From assembly GCA_019187225.1 (NCBI GenBank), contig JABAQQ010000013.1:62001-126000 (forward strand): a stretch of DNA of 64,000 bases. The letters run 5' to 3'. Below, piece by piece: positions 18,769 to 33,652 of this stretch. Made by a program: the position numbers and the translations under genes. The DNA comes from Saprospiraceae bacterium. GTDB lineage: Bacteria > Bacteroidota > Bacteroidia > Chitinophagales > Saprospiraceae. The notes below the pieces were generated by a model, which was given only the letters and a program-made list of their open reading frames with translations, had not been told where the DNA came from and searched no databases. How positions within the stretch are numbered: position 1 is the stretch's first letter; each line of letters opens with the position of its first letter.

Positions 18769-19431
18769 TTACCCGTTCGCTTTTCGATAATCCGCGAGGA
18801 ATTTTTCCAGACCGATATCTGTCAGCGGGTGGTTGAACAGGCCCATGATAGCCGAGAGCGGGCAAGTCACCACATCGGCGCCGGCTTTGGCGGCCTGTAC
18901 GATGTGGAGCGGGCTGCGGATGCTGGCGGCGAGAATAGCGGTTTCGTAGCCTTGTATCTCGTAAATCCTGTTGATCTCCCGGATGAGCGCGATACCGTCC
19001 CAATTGATGTCGTCGATGCGGCCGATGAACGGAGAGAGATAGGTAGCGCCTGCTTTGGCGGCCAGAATGGCCTGACCTGCCGAAAAGACCAGCGTGCAAT
19101 TCGTTTTGATGCCGATCTCGGCAAAATGTGCCAGGGCTTTCACGCCGTCTTTGATCATCGGCACTTTCACTACGATGTTCGGATGTATCTCGGCGAGTTT
19201 TTTGCCTTCGGCCACGATGCCTTTGAAATCGGTAGCGATGACCTCGGCGCTCACGTCGCGCTCGTCGCCGACGATCTCGCAGATCGTGCGATAATGTTTG
19301 AGGATGTTTTTTTCACCGGAAATGCCCTCTTTAGCCATGAGCGAGGGGTTGGTCGTCACACCGTCGAGGATGCCCAGTTCAGCGGCTTCGCGGATGTGAT
19401 CGAGGTTGGCAGTATCAATAAAGAAGAGCAT
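18769..19431 (-). CDS. fsa: fructose-6-phosphate aldolase / transaldolase-like (TalC/FSA family)
   Basis: Cytosolic class I aldolase fold of 220 residues, the short size typical of the FSA/TalC subfamily. The N-terminal FFIDTANL and DGVTTNPSL are the family signatures. The Schiff-base lysine is Lys89 in VVKVPM, followed by NCTLVFS and SPFIGRIDD. These enzymes either cleave or form fructose 6-phosphate from dihydroxyacetone and glyceraldehyde 3-phosphate or carry out transaldolase chemistry in the pentose phosphate pathway. Sequence alone does not separate the two here. Thirteen bp upstream of the start begins an extraordinary perfect palindrome (19444-19520), which would fall in the 5' leader if the promoter is further upstream. 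Confidence 0.93.
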   Translation of the reverse strand: MLFFIDTANLDHIREAAELGILDGVTTNPSLMAKEGISGEKNILKHYRTICEIVGDERDVSAEVIATDFKGIVAEGKKLAEIHPNIVVKVPMIKDGVKALAHFAEIGIKTNCTLVFSAGQAILAAKAGATYLSPFIGRIDDINWDGIALIREINRIYEIQGYETAILAASIRSPLHIVQAAKAGADVVTCPLSAIMGLFNHPLTDIGLEKFLADYRKANG

Positions 19432-19443
19432 ACTTGACAGGGG

Positions 19444-19520
19444 AATGCGTTTGTTGTACGGGTTTGTTTAAAAATTTTTTTGAAAAAAATTTTTAAACAA
19501 ACCCGTACAACAAACGCATT
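19444..19520. repeat. perfect 38-bp palindrome with 1-nt loop
   Basis: The left arm 19444-19481 (starts AATGCGTTTGTTGTACGGG, ends AAAAATTTTTTT) and the right arm 19483-19520 are exact complements around a single G at 19482. The inner part is A5T7. It sits 13 bp upstream of the fsa start. Compare the second palindrome at 19611-19687. Confidence 0.95.
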
Positions 19521-19610
19521 TACAGTTTTTTAAACGTGAATCAATATATCATTCAAAGCGGAGAGATTTGGCTGAAATATAGAACATAAATTGATCAACC
19601 CAATCTTGTA

Positions 19611-19687
19611 AACGCGATTTGCAAAGGGGGCACAAGAAAAATTTTTCCGAGAAAAATTTTTCTTGTGCCCCCTTTGCAAATCGCGTT
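19611..19687. repeat. perfect 37-bp palindrome with 3-nt loop
   Basis: The left arm 19611-19647 (starts AACGCGATTTGCAAAGGGGG, ends AAAAATTTTTC) and the right arm 19651-19687 are exact complements around CGA. It has the same design as 19444-19520: outer end AAYGCG, inner A5T5. The outer sequence is otherwise different. It lies just beyond the 3' end of the SRP RNA gene. The 90 bp between the two palindromes (19521-19610) hold nothing I recognise. Confidence 0.95.
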
Positions 19688-19697
19688 CCCGCTAAAC

Positions 19698-19788
19698 AAA
19701 AAAAGCGCCAGACACACCGCTACGACCACATATCCTTGCTGCGTTTCCGCCCTGGGGAGGTTTTGCAGGAGCTGGTCGCCCGGCGCCG
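19698..19788 (-). ncRNA. ffs: signal recognition particle RNA (4.5S-like, small bacterial type)
   Basis: Read on the minus strand, the RNA contains CCAGGGCGGAAACGCAGCA followed by AGG, the conserved SRP helix 8 with its symmetric loop and GGAA-type tetraloop. This part binds Ffh (SRP54). The ends pair well: 5' GCGCCGG (from 19786) with 3' CUGGCGC (to 19705), and GACCA with UGGUC. A run of seven U (19698-19704) ends the transcript. The length of about 85-90 nt suits the small type without an Alu domain. It is preceded by TACCTTTG at 19792-19799. The RNA works with Ffh and FtsY in co-translational targeting of membrane proteins. Confidence 0.9.
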
Positions 19789-19791
19789 CCG

Positions 19792-19799
19792 CAAAGGTA
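19792..19799 (-). promoter_or_regulatory. -7 element of the SRP RNA gene
   Basis: TACCTTTG on the minus strand is a perfect TAnnTTTG element, about 5-10 nt ahead of the predicted RNA 5' end. The same octamer precedes rpmI and paaZ. No clear TTG at -33 was found. Confidence 0.6.
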
Positions 19800-20012
19800 G
19801 AGGTTTGTCGGATTTTTTCACCATAGCGGCCATATTCTTTTGGCTGTTGCCTCATTCCGGTTGCCTGAACTACCGAAACACTGCGAATTTTTCCAATCTT
19901 GTGTTACCTCAAATTCAGACAAAAACAATTTTCCCCCAAACCTTTTGTTTCAAACTTCCATAAAAACCGTTCTTTTGCAACGTACAATTGACTGGAAACC
20001 AAACGCGATAAT

Positions 20013-23000
20013 ATGGCTGATTTTGAAATTCCTGCTTCGGCGACTTCTGAAATGAAATCTGTGGCAGCACCGTCATACAGCGGTGAAGCCCTCGAATGGC
20101 TCTCCGCCCTGCCGAACGAGCCGGTGAAAGCCGACCTGACGGCCATTGATGCAGACCTGGCGATCCGCTGCGTCCACGAACTGGTGGAAGGGCGTAAATT
20201 CGATTTCACGGTGCAAGCCAACTTTCCCGCCGGCGAGTGGCTCAATCATTTTTATTTCGAGGCCCGCAACCGCGAAAAGGTTTTCGGCACCAAAAACCTC
20301 GGTATCGGCTATCCTTTTGTCATGGCACGCCTTGGCGGATACAACGTAGCCGCCCCCCTGTTTGTGTGGCAAATTTCGCTGGAACCGCACTCCCAAAATG
20401 TGGACACCTGGTTGGTGCAGCGCAGCGAAGGGCATTTTGTCGTGCCAAACTATCCATTTTTTCACCTGCTCGACGCTCTGAACGGCACCGATTTTTCACG
20501 CCGGGCACAGCAACTCGCCGAAACCAGAAGTCTGAATTCCAAAACTTTCGACGATCTGTGCGAAGGTATCCGACTTATGCTCGGTTTGGTGGAAGACGGA
20601 CTGCCGCTCAGTATCCAATCGTTCCCGAGCAATGGCGCCACTACAAATATCATCAACGAAGGACGGCTGATGTGGTCGGCTGTGGCGGGCATTTTCCCCT
20701 CCCTGCCGCGCACGACCGTGACCACGCCACCGACCGTGGCGCCCGATTTGCCTACCGACGGCGCCGACTGGAAGCATCCTTTCACCATGCTGCCCCTCGA
20801 CCCTTCGCAGCGCTCGGTGCTCCACGCTGTGCAACACAACGCGCTTACGGTCGTGGAAGGCACCTCGGGCACAGGTAAAACCTATCTGATTTCGGCCATC
20901 GTGATGAACGCGCTGTCACACGGCAAAAAATGCCTTGTTGTGTCGAAAAGCATCAATGCCTTGCGGAGATCCCAGAAGTTCTTGCTGGAAAAAGGCTTCG
21001 GCGACGTGTCATTCGTGTTGCGCGACATCGCTGGCGACCAACTCATGCTCGCCGACATGCTGCGCGCGGCTTCGGAAAATAAAAACAAGGCACTCTACGA
21101 CGAAGAATTGTTCAAAGCGGTGCAGAACAAAACGCTGCGCGAACAGCGCAAACTCGACGATGCCTGGGAAGAACTGCACGCCCCGCTGTTCGGCGACCTG
21201 ACTTTTACCGAAACGGTGGGAAAATACCTCCGCGCCAACCGCATGGAAGGCAAAGAACTGCTGCTCAGCCATTTGCAACCGCAGGATTTTGAATTCTCCA
21301 AAAAAGAATACAACAGCATTGTGGAGGCGATCTACGCCAGCGAACCGCTGTTCCGCCGCTTCCCCACCCTTTCGCATCCCCTGGGCCGGCTCAACCACAC
21401 CGTATTTCTTCAACAGGACTCGACCAAAGGTCTCGCATGGACAGAGGCCCTCGTGAAAGCGATGCTCGGCAAAGCGACGGCACTGCACCACCGCTACATT
21501 GCCAAGACCAATGATTACGCCGAGAGCCTGCTCGATCACTACGAACAATATTATTCGGAACTGGCGGCCTTCGTCAAACGCATCCGCGATGGATTGGAAG
21601 ACGGTGTGAACCGCTTCGGCAGCGATTTTGAAAAACCCATTTCTGCGGCGGAAAAACTCTACGGTGTGTTCAGCGACCGCTATAAGGAAATCGTCGCCGC
21701 AAAAGAGAAAATCGGCGCCACCTTCGATGAAATGCGCCGCACCTACAGCCTGCGCAAACATTTCGACTTCGATTTTCCGGCATATTTTGACAACAAGAAC
21801 ATCAAAAAAATATCGGAACTCACCAAGGATTTTGAAGCTTCGTTGCGCATGTGGCGCCGCCGCATCCCCTCCGTGGTGCGCGAAGACGTGCGCCGCCTCA
21901 ACGGCAAAAGCATACAGGCCGACCTCGATTTCCGCGAGCAGGTCAAAGAACTGGAATACGCGATGGACGTGTTTCTCGAAGAGTTCAACGCAACGGGGCT
22001 CTACGAAGACGCACTGAAACACGAAATGCTGACGATCCCGAAACGCCAGGAATTCCTGGAGGATGTGATCGCCCGTTTGGAGGACACCCAATTCTACCTG
22101 CGCGACTTCGAGGATTTCCACATCTGGCAACGGCACTGGCTCAGCCTGCGCCCGGTGGAGCAAAAAGTCGTGCGCTCCTTGTGCAAGATCAAGCCGAACA
22201 ACTGGCTGGCGGCATTCGAGAGTTGGTACCTGCACCATCTGTTGCAAAACGAGTTCAATCCCGGCATGGTGTGGGACGACGATACGCTGGCCAATTTCAG
22301 CAGCAATCTCCGCGAACTGCGCGAATTGCTGCCCTACCAGATCAGCGCCTTGTGGCAAAACCGCAAAAACAAGGCCCTGAAAGCCCTGAAATCGGTTGAC
22401 AGCAAAGCATTCAAAACCTGGTTCGGCAAGGATAACCGGACCCTGGCCGCCGCGCAAAAACCGGAGGAGTTGTTCCAGAAACACATCCAGCCGCTGACCG
22501 AGACGCTTCCCGTGCTGCTCGTGACGCCACAGGTAGCGCTCGACGTGGTACAACTCTCGGGCATGACCTTCGACCTGGTGTTGGTGGACGAAGCGCACAA
22601 TATTCCCAAACAGGAGTGCTACCACCTGTTTGAAATGTCGAAAAACCTCGTTGTCCTTGGCGATTCGAAGCAGGACATGACGCCGCAGGCGGAAGACGAT
22701 TTCCTCGAATTCTGCAAAGGCATCGGCGCGAAAGCCCACGTACTCGAATACCAGCACCAGGATAGCCCCGAAGAGTGGGTGCGTTTCAATAAAATTGCAT
22801 TCGATACGCCGTACAAACGGATGCCATCCGGACGCAGCGCGCGTGAAGCCACCATTGTCGCCAATGTGGAGGGTCGCTACGACGAAAATGCACGCACCAA
22901 CGAGGCCGAAGCCCGTCAGATCATTGACTGGCTCAACCTCATTGAACCTACTACTGCGCGCAGCACTTACCCGGTAGTTGGCATCGCCTGCTCGACGGTG

Positions 23001-32697: not shown

Positions 32698-32859
32698 GTG
32701 GGCAGTGGCAGTGGCAGTGGGCAGTGGCAGTGGCAGTGGGCAGTGGCAGTGGGCAGTGGCAGTGGCAGTGGCAGTGGGCAGTGGCAGTGGCAGTGGCAGT
32801 GGGCAGTGGCAGTGGCAGTGGGCAGTGGCAGTGGCAGTGGGCACTGCCACTGCCACTGC
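32698..32859. repeat. GGCAGT hexamer tandem array ending in a hairpin
   Basis: About 24 units of GGCAGT, with an extra G inserted at intervals, run from 32698 to 32841. The array ends in an inverted copy so that 32822-32839 and 32842-32859 form an 18-bp perfect hairpin with a GG loop. It lies 7 bp beyond the stop of the minus-strand gene at 32867, in the gap before the next gene. Related hexamers occur at 34303-34332 and inside a gene at 58191-58237. Confidence 0.95.
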
Positions 32860-32866
32860 AAACTGC

Positions 32867-33652
32867 CTATCTGGCTATTACCATTTTTCGCGCTACCCTG
32901 CCATCGGCATTTCCGAAGGTGAAGAAGTAAGCGCCGTTGGGCAGATCACCGGCTTCGAAAGTGAACTGGTTGGAGCCCGCGAGCACATTTATGCTTTGGC
33001 TGTGGATCATTTGGCCTGTCAGGTCAAATACCTCGAAGCGAAAATCGCCGCTGACGTTCGATTCGACCTGAATCATGGTCTGGTCGCTGAAAGGATTGGG
33101 CGTGTTTTTTACAGAAGATATTTGGCCACTCAGGTCGTCCGCCCCGCTGACGCATTCTCCCTGCGGTTTTACCACGAGGTAGTAGTGAAAGCTGGCGTTG
33201 ATCACGCTGGGGAAATTAAGCGGGAAGGGGAATGGCGGAATATTCACCAGGATGGACAAATCGGCGGTATCCGCTGGGCCGGTGGGTGTGCCATAGACCA
33301 ATACGCAGCCCAATGTATTTTTAGCAAATACGCAGTTCGGTGGGTCGCACAGATAGGTCAAACCCGCAGGCAAACCCGTGATGGCGCCGGCTGTGGCAAT
33401 GGAAATATTCGTAATTGGAATCGCCGGCAGGTTGGGGAGCGCAAGCGTGTCGGGGACGTTAAAGGTGAATGATTGAGTGTAAGGTTCGTTGATACACGCC
33501 GTTTTCGTAAAAATAAACGGGCTATCAGGCGACCAATACCAGGGAGATACCAGCGCGCCCGACATCAACAGGGAGGAATCGCGCATACAATTTTGGGCGT
33601 TCATGGTTGCCGCCCAGGCAACGACACACAGCAGGAGTACAGTTTTTTTCAT
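32867..33652 (-). CDS. T9SS-exported protein (261 aa), paralogue of its neighbour
   Basis: A signal peptide ends TMNAQ (about 20). The central part (about 70-130) has ITNISIATAGAITGLPAGL and GCVLVYGTPTGPADTADL, which match the arrangement in the N-terminal part of the 601-residue neighbour. The C-terminal 80 residues are a type A T9SS sorting domain (NTPNPFSDQTMIQV, FEVFDLTGQMIHSQ, LPNGAYFFTF). It looks like a short version of the larger paralogue without PKD and Ig segments. Secreted; function unknown. Its 3' end runs into the hexamer array. Confidence 0.85.
   Translation of the reverse strand: MKKTVLLLCVVAWAATMNAQNCMRDSSLLMSGALVSPWYWSPDSPFIFTKTACINEPYTQSFTFNVPDTLALPNLPAIPITNISIATAGAITGLPAGLTYLCDPPNCVFAKNTLGCVLVYGTPTGPADTADLSILVNIPPFPFPLNFPSVINASFHYYLVVKPQGECVSGADDLSGQISSVKNTPNPFSDQTMIQVESNVSGDFRFEVFDLTGQMIHSQSINVLAGSNQFTFEAGDLPNGAYFFTFGNADGRVARKMVIAR

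Follow-up and report, generated by a model that had tools for sequence, protein, structure and literature searches.

The interval between the gene for fructose-6-phosphate aldolase (fsa) and that for the small SRP RNA (ffs) holds two long palindromes in the window, the 64,000-nucleotide stretch of a Saprospiraceae genome that was analysed here. The features of this interval and its borders are as follows.

18769..19431, − strand: fsa, encoding a fructose-6-phosphate aldolase of 220 aa; lies downstream of palindrome 1
19440..19443, − strand: CCCC end of palindrome 1, which reads GGGG on the + strand; the fsa ATG is 12 nt from the palindrome
19444..19520, − strand: palindrome 1, start-side element of fsa, with TGTA to CCCC polarity on the − strand and the CCCC end towards the fsa start codon
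19521..19525, − strand: tag of palindrome 1 in the form CTGTA, an instance of the YTGTA motif common to the family described below
19526..19605, no strand: spacer separating the TGTA sides of the head-to-head pair, read from the sequence
19606..19610, + strand: YTGTA tag of palindrome 2, TTGTA
19611..19687, + strand: palindrome 2, CCC end towards the 3′ end of the SRP RNA gene, with an orthologue bearing mirrored changes in the congener G054
19688..19692, + strand: CCCGC end of palindrome 2, read from the sequence
19699..19789, − strand: small SRP RNA gene (ffs), RF00169, 42.4 bits against a gathering cut-off of 40

Palindrome 1 has perfect arms of 38 nt at 19444-19481 and 19483-19520 (100%, loop of 1 nt), and palindrome 2 has perfect arms of 37 nt at 19611-19647 and 19651-19687 (100%, loop of 3 nt), so that both are as real, mismatch-free and nearly loopless as a sequence-only reading of this DNA had described them. 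Its judgement that they exceed ordinary lengths also stands: the third-best perfect inverted repeat of the window has 18-bp arms (loops of up to 12 nt allowed), the longest arms in six order-3 Markov copies of the window measure 9-13 bp, and the pair is far above chance. RNA folding of the two hairpins with their flanks gives −50.8 and −62 kcal/mol. The fsa product matches TIGR00875 (fructose-6-phosphate aldolase) at 270.6 bits against a cut-off of 245.95, in agreement with the name first given to the gene, and the distance from palindrome 2 to the ffs 3′ end is 11 nt. Elsewhere in the window, at 32814-32867, words of the GGCAGT type build a hairpin with a perfect core of 18 bp.

The genome of origin (G000; 7,183,558 bases in 73 contigs) was first searched with AAAAATTTTTN6AAAAATTTTT, two mismatches being allowed, which returned further long palindromes. 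The flanks of those palindromes were alike and asymmetric and therefore gave a second pattern, TGTAAAYGN{55,80}CRTTCCC, which puts no demand on the inner arms; it occurs at 28 places, and every one is a palindrome, 66-82 bp long, in which 0-5 pairs mismatch when counted as far as the centre. A covariance model built from an alignment of 43 copies (28 from this genome and 15 from others, with L096 and L094 omitted) finds 37 distinct places in the genome at E ≤0.01 (72 rows, both strands). Both flanks are present at 35 of these, being unclear at C2:92308 and C45:34921, and an extra copy, tagged TGTG, resides in the gap between an SPFH gene and an Arc-like gene. The 35 flanked places and the TGTG-tagged copy therefore amount to a family of at least 36 copies in the 7.2-Mb genome, and the earlier proposal of a family of hairpin elements is borne out by no fewer than 34 copies beyond the window pair. 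A flank-independent scan of 1.224 Mb (overlaps included) returned 25 palindrome-like places at a score of ≥20, six of them with family flanks (two being the window pair) and a seventh, C2:92308, with a degenerate tag. At a score of ≥33 there were 11 places: six with both flanks, one with the degenerate tag and four with neither. A palindrome with 40-bp arms on contig C11 bears no family tag or flanks.

Within the genus, 16 of 42 genomes (that of the window included) match the covariance model at E 1e-5; the model matches inspected in G049 and G052 are without family flanks, and copies with both flanks occur in 14 of the 42, namely G000 and 13 congeners. For KLAP56 (G022), the model gives 30 distinct places at E <2e-10, and 26 of 33 places inspected have both flanks. 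No family copy was found in 40 other Saprospiraceae genomes, in a search of 41 genomes from 40 genera that scored 106 candidates per genome under stricter filters and that did match the genome of origin. A search across the order (298 genomes) carries little weight, 14 candidates having been scored per genome, which reduced the 72 rows of G000 to 14. Among 31 stretches found by a scan of named genomes, those that are palindromic belong to KLAP56, two MAGs titled Saprospiraceae and one MAG titled Thermoanaerobaculia. The records so titled (MAG.385; L107, L109) contain family elements and correspond to G051, a genome of the window's genus, and it looks as though the title is wrong or the bin mixed. 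Six pattern matches in viral contigs include no palindrome (20-26 mismatching pairs of 31-39), and plasmids queried with palindrome 1 alone gave no match. Counts given below out of 100 copies refer to one set, 36 from G000 and 64 from the 13 congeners, from which a duplicate (L189-, the same as L062) was removed; 20 further hits, several of them palindromes without flanks, were kept out of all counts.

The element plan consists of YTGTA, an arm made up of AATGNNTTTG and of G-rich, A-rich and T-rich blocks in that order, a small loop, the mirror arm and CCC(C/G)T. Arms are mostly 33-41 bp long, the whole element spans 54-102 bp, and GTA and CCC stand at the ends in 90 of the 100 copies, one or both flanks being missing in the other 10. 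What is conserved is for the most part the tag, four letters per stem base, TTT at arm positions 7-9 and the composition plan. These letters concentrate around the stem base and in the A/T-rich centre, and conservation of the tag and stem base is partly built in because the search pattern and the model contain them. The design shared by the window pair had been placed in its outer ends and inner A5T5; both are indeed shared, but the sharing is wider and takes in the asymmetric YTGTA and CCCC/CCCG flanks. Mid-arm identity between G000 copies is 0.553 versus 0.500 when shuffled, and the best arm identity between any two copies of that genome is 0.84. The idea that each copy is built from local sequence is thus compatible with mid-arms that are close to unrelated but not with the ends, flanks, composition plan and size, which are held in common. 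Across the 5′ arms of the 100 copies, G outnumbers C (932 versus 388) and T outnumbers A (1332 versus 966).

The CCCC end lies 5-18 nt ahead of a start codon in 45 of 100 copies (median 12) and −2 to 17 nt from a stop codon in 33 (median 10); two of the remaining copies are at an ffs 3′ end, two are ambiguous and 18 have no recognised edge, the edge class having been set by hand for 16 copies in these placement counts and in those of composition. Under a single automatic rule (ORF edge within ≤25 nt), an edge adjoins the CCCC side in 77 copies versus 10 for the TGTA side. The TGTA/CCCC flanks are the same at both edge types, and the orientation is mirrored between start- and stop-side copies; AAA at −9 to −7 is found in 31/45 start-side versus 9/33 stop-side copies, and the sense flank after stop-side stems starts with TACAR, with no T-run. 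Element pairs less than 300 bp apart, of which there are 10 among 60 loci in addition to the window pair, all have their TGTA sides facing. Family searches identified ten adjoining genes: fsa, an RtcB-family ligase, an Mre11/SbcD-like phosphoesterase (an assignment below cut-offs), a Band 7 (SPFH) gene, leuC, cysN, thymidine kinase, the A subunit of gyrase/topoisomerase IV, dnaK and a clpB-like gene that is cut by the locus end. Because the element edges the starts and stops of many protein genes, the SRP-RNA-specific role once suggested for the pair is unsupported, while the suggestion of a control device in the fsa leader agrees with the start-side class. Across 118,019 genomes surveyed, perfect inverted repeats are reported to be enriched near gene starts and ends generally (PMC13155455); the available portion of that survey fits the placement of the family and does not describe such elements, and the literature matches listed contain no description of a gene-edge palindrome family.

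Two other functions were considered for the flanks and set aside. The start-side flank TNNAAANYTGTA resembles the −7 box of Bacteroidetes, TANNTTTG, as given in the accessible text of PMC6847099, but the exact box is present in just 3 of 45 start-side copies; the motif TA..TTTG occurs upstream of G000 genes 137 times in sense versus 74 times in antisense orientation (521 regions). Circularisation of the message through CCCC-GGGG pairing would call for elements at both sides of a gene, and the two such genes are too few: an rtcB-like gene in G000 and a 210-aa gene in KLAP56, the stop-side palindrome of the latter being without family flanks.

Pairing between the arms is maintained with near perfection. 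Standard pairs occupy 97.6% of 1,323 cells in the co-variation alignment (43 copies, 31 pairs), in which the 28 G000 copies were unfiltered, the 15 others were kept for having ≤10 mismatching pairs and two KLAP56 pattern hits (12 and 9 mismatching pairs) were omitted; 494 cells are changed on both sides, and sliding the columns by 1-3 leaves 37.5-53.1% paired. In the larger set, 59 of 100 copies (27 of 36 from G000) are perfect over all counted outer pairs. G-U accounts for 15 of the 1,323 cells (about 1%) and for 12 of 1,422 pairs in start-side copies, versus 98 of 616 in 24 SRP RNAs of the genus, a count that comes from energy folds and is thus not of the same kind as the comparative one. 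This rarity of G-U points to correction at the level of DNA.

The residual mismatches differ between the two edge classes. If DNA symmetry alone counted, G-T and A-C would be expected in equal numbers on the sense strand. In 43 start-side copies, G-T outnumbers A-C by 12 to 1 (26 mismatches in total; P = 0.003 per mismatch; 8 copies versus 1), an excess that speaks for selection acting on the transcribed strand at start edges but that may be inflated, because the model by which the non-pattern copies were found has a slight preference for G-U over A-C on the TGTA strand. In 32 stop-side copies, the two ffs copies included, the numbers are 7 and 7 (23 in total), with SPFH-site mismatches partly counted twice through shared ancestry. 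Excluded from the mismatch count were 6 copies that had over 7 mismatches and 19 that had no edge class; 17 of the edge classes used in it were set by hand.

Elements recur at the same gene edge in 2-4 species for six neighbour-gene groups (SPFH, SbcD-like, cysN, leuC, thymidine kinase and topoisomerase A), from which a response-regulator pair (G014, G022), whose members may be paralogues, was excluded. None of the six groups joins G000 and KLAP56, which argues that the sites turn over. Beyond the SPFH gene, the Arc-like start has an element in G000, G010, G040 and G053. The gap between these two genes is readable in 25 of 30 loci (L258-L287) and is just 17 bp in G014; by eye, most of the 25 bear a species-specific hairpin, and several of these hairpins are mirrored tandem short words. 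The ffs 3′ end bears an element in both G000 and G054, and the two copies differ by 10 substituted positions and a 2-bp deletion, each affecting both arms at the mirror position. Five of these mirrored substitutions are beside the stem base, and two and three lie further in; nine of the ten are complementary again, and one is A-C. Mirrored arm changes are also seen at other orthologous sites, as would be expected of template switching, although selection acting on single steps may be an alternative reading.

Across 13 ortholog comparisons, identity ranges over 0.46-0.79 in the arms (0.40-0.50 after shuffling) and over 0.75-1.00 in the 8 nt past the stem. The 18 nt ahead of the tag are 0.50-0.94 alike in the 12 comparisons that could be measured, and this upstream flank is clearly (>0.1) above the arms in six of them and similar or worse in the other six, as for leuC (0.61 versus 0.62) and the ffs site (0.50 versus 0.65). 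The contrast is sharpest at the Mre11/SbcD-like gene. There, two comparisons put arm identity at 0.54 and 0.69 (0.48 and 0.46 when shuffled), against 94% for the 18 nt that precede the tag and full identity of the 8 nt that follow the stem. G054 has no palindrome ahead of fsa, so palindrome 1 either arose in the line of G000 or disappeared from that of G054, and no pre-fsa element was found in the loci of 25 relatives (26 fsa loci with that of the window; two have little upstream sequence). The intergenic sequence cannot be aligned, and an insertion boundary at fsa is therefore unreadable. In KLAP56, a different-looking long hairpin resides within the same ffs-fsa interval (contig C13; L335, 1501-1573). 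Recent formation, which had been offered as one source of the perfect symmetry, does not suit palindrome 2, whose orthologue is present in a congener; palindrome 1 is absent there. The other suggestion, that symmetry is kept in some way, is sustained by the co-variation and the mirrored changes. Had the palindromes lacked both similar elements and positional conservation, the sequence-only reading would have been abandoned by its own terms; copies occur genome-wide, and the ffs site is kept in G054.

The copies thus have a common anatomy, turn their CCCC end to a boundary in most cases, co-vary almost perfectly and change in mirror fashion at conserved positions. Tentatively, we read the window palindromes as two members of a gene-edge palindrome family that act as transcribed hairpins and are maintained by template switching. 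Copies would be transcribed, placing a hairpin of about 37 bp against the coding part of a message, and this hairpin would act through its structure rather than its sequence. The duplex may shield cistron ends from exonucleases, or it could invite a cut of the RNase III type, a sequence-independent, double-strand cleavage that would part neighbouring cistrons. Once a mutation spoils the match, template switching during replication could copy one arm onto the other; the arm sequence would drift and the palindrome nevertheless stay nearly perfect because arm-to-arm copying would restore the match. It is possible, if somewhat speculative, that what is inherited at the edges of core genes is a boundary element in the form of a shape, the letters of its two arms being rewritten jointly and without end by arm copying and selection acting mainly on the junction letters and the distance to the start or stop codon. 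The role in RNA does not account for everything: an RNA-only role leaves the mirrored TGTA/CCCC flanks of start- and stop-side copies unexplained, and the even stop-side mismatches show no strand bias of the kind seen at start edges. Two further observations count against the reading as a whole: the exact −7 box, which would set transcript starts at the palindrome, is rare among start-side copies, and the upstream flank is clearly better kept than the arms at only about half of the sites compared.

According to the available text of PMC8794818, template switching creates and maintains hairpins, their stems a few pairs long, in genes for rRNA and other RNAs. In those hairpins, as in the present family, arm-to-arm copying keeps stems paired and produces multi-base mirrored changes, and the same G-C/T-A bias is seen; the family differs in being dispersed and in having arms of about 37 bp rather than few-pair stems in RNA genes (PMC8794818, as far as its available text extends). 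The same work predicts that intrastrand template switching leaves more G than C, and more T than A, in the 5′ arm (PMC8794818); the 100 arms are biased in just this way, although a composition preference could also be the cause. Preserved, long perfect inverted repeats have also been described in Nematomorpha mitochondria, where, according to the part of the report at hand, they lie inside organelle coding genes (PMC6649704); those of the family are at bacterial gene edges and have constant flanks.

Several further systems invite comparison. Mitochondrial double-hairpin elements are small, dispersed hairpins like those of the family, but they are organelle elements. Intercistronic RNase III processing hairpins place a long duplex beside start codons and are read by structure; to our knowledge, those described are single loci with neither tags nor dispersal, whereas the present elements are tagged and dispersed and their cleavage is putative. 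The attC sites of integrons follow each cassette stop in a single orientation, with an integrase present; the orientation of the family is mirrored between start and stop sides.

A closer likeness is that to REPs, which in the accessible part of PMC3733652 are likewise extragenic palindromes, single or paired, with a short tag (GTAG or CGTC) at one end. REPs are 20-40 bp long, their copies are alike in sequence and a RAYT is often nearby (PMC3733652, same portion), whereas family members span 54-102 bp, carry YGTA and CCC(C/G) on opposite sides, and are nearly free in arm sequence. The family carries neither a GTAG nor a CGTC tag, and its 28 pattern-defined G000 copies (66-82 bp, mid-arm identity as above) are not 20-40 bp repeats of like sequence. 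The elements could be mobile palindromes of this type, with a 5′ TGTA tag and a 3′ CCCCT around a single-strand hairpin that a transposase, of the HUH type or another, would move in trans, inserting preferentially at gene edges or surviving only there, after which the arms would drift. We regard such an origin as doubtful. It would account for asymmetric flanks around a variable stem, for head-to-head pairs that resemble REP dimers, for the patchy distribution within the genus and for the failure of any neighbour-gene group to join G000 and KLAP56, and one-sided tags have a precedent in GTAG and CGTC (PMC3733652, available text). Against it, G000 has no near-identical copies, the best arm identity being 0.84 and the mid-arms near shuffled, and some sites are retained across species. 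Moreover, none of the three Y1_Tnp matches of G000 has a family element within the 1.5-kb flanks inspected, and one of the three has REPs of another sequence. Membership in the RAYT/REP system was rejected on this ground, the repeats of the RAYT-like gene itself being other REPs. That gene (L154, 1347-2166; G000 contig C9) has five short REPs, CCCACCGATWWATCGGTGGG, around it.

Less probable is a boundary element that works as a DNA cruciform, in which supercoiling would extrude the palindrome and a protein would read the four-way junction, insulating the neighbouring genes. The conserved letters at the stem base (TGTA/AATG and CATT/CCCC) would form the base of the junction and the centre is A/T-rich, the flanks are identical at both edge types, G-U is rare and stop-side copies lack strand bias, all of which suit a structure in DNA, but the tag conservation is partly a product of the search pattern and model. 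Neither the sense-strand G-T bias of start-side copies nor the unequal AAA at −9 to −7 would be expected of a cruciform, and we know of no binding protein, which counts against it. Ordinary bidirectional intrinsic terminators of unusual length are a distinctly improbable explanation. One third of the copies do sit at stop codons, and G000 has other long hairpins 5-7 nt from stops, but the elements are not G+C-rich stems with an immediate T-run, TACAR takes the place of the T-run in the stop-side sense flank, no terminator-like sites were found in 19380-20020, and a terminator 5-18 nt before a start codon, the position of 45 of 100 copies, would silence the gene. Assembly fold-back could in principle yield perfect palindromes, but it can practically be dismissed given both-flank copies in 14 separately assembled genomes, asymmetric flanks and mirrored substitutions between orthologues.

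A long perfect palindrome would be expected to decay or disappear from a genome; here, dozens persist at core genes with their sequence largely free. The family offers a natural, genome-wide system in which to measure arm-to-arm template switching, and it makes selection for fold and position, as opposed to letters, open to test. If transcribed, the elements would represent a way in which these bacteria mark cistron edges.

Other palindromic repeats were encountered in the same genomes. A second palindrome family in G045, G049 and G016 (L331, 314-400; L172, 1501-1574; L334, 1501-1577) has constant outer arms, TAGTGGTGGCATGG, with small variations, and inner arms that vary freely and are still nearly perfect; it shows the same behaviour with other rims. 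In addition, a recurrent hairpin containing CGTGGAGGGGCAGCGCCCCG or part of it (L016, L024, L028, L289, L310 and L316) probably represents another repeat family.
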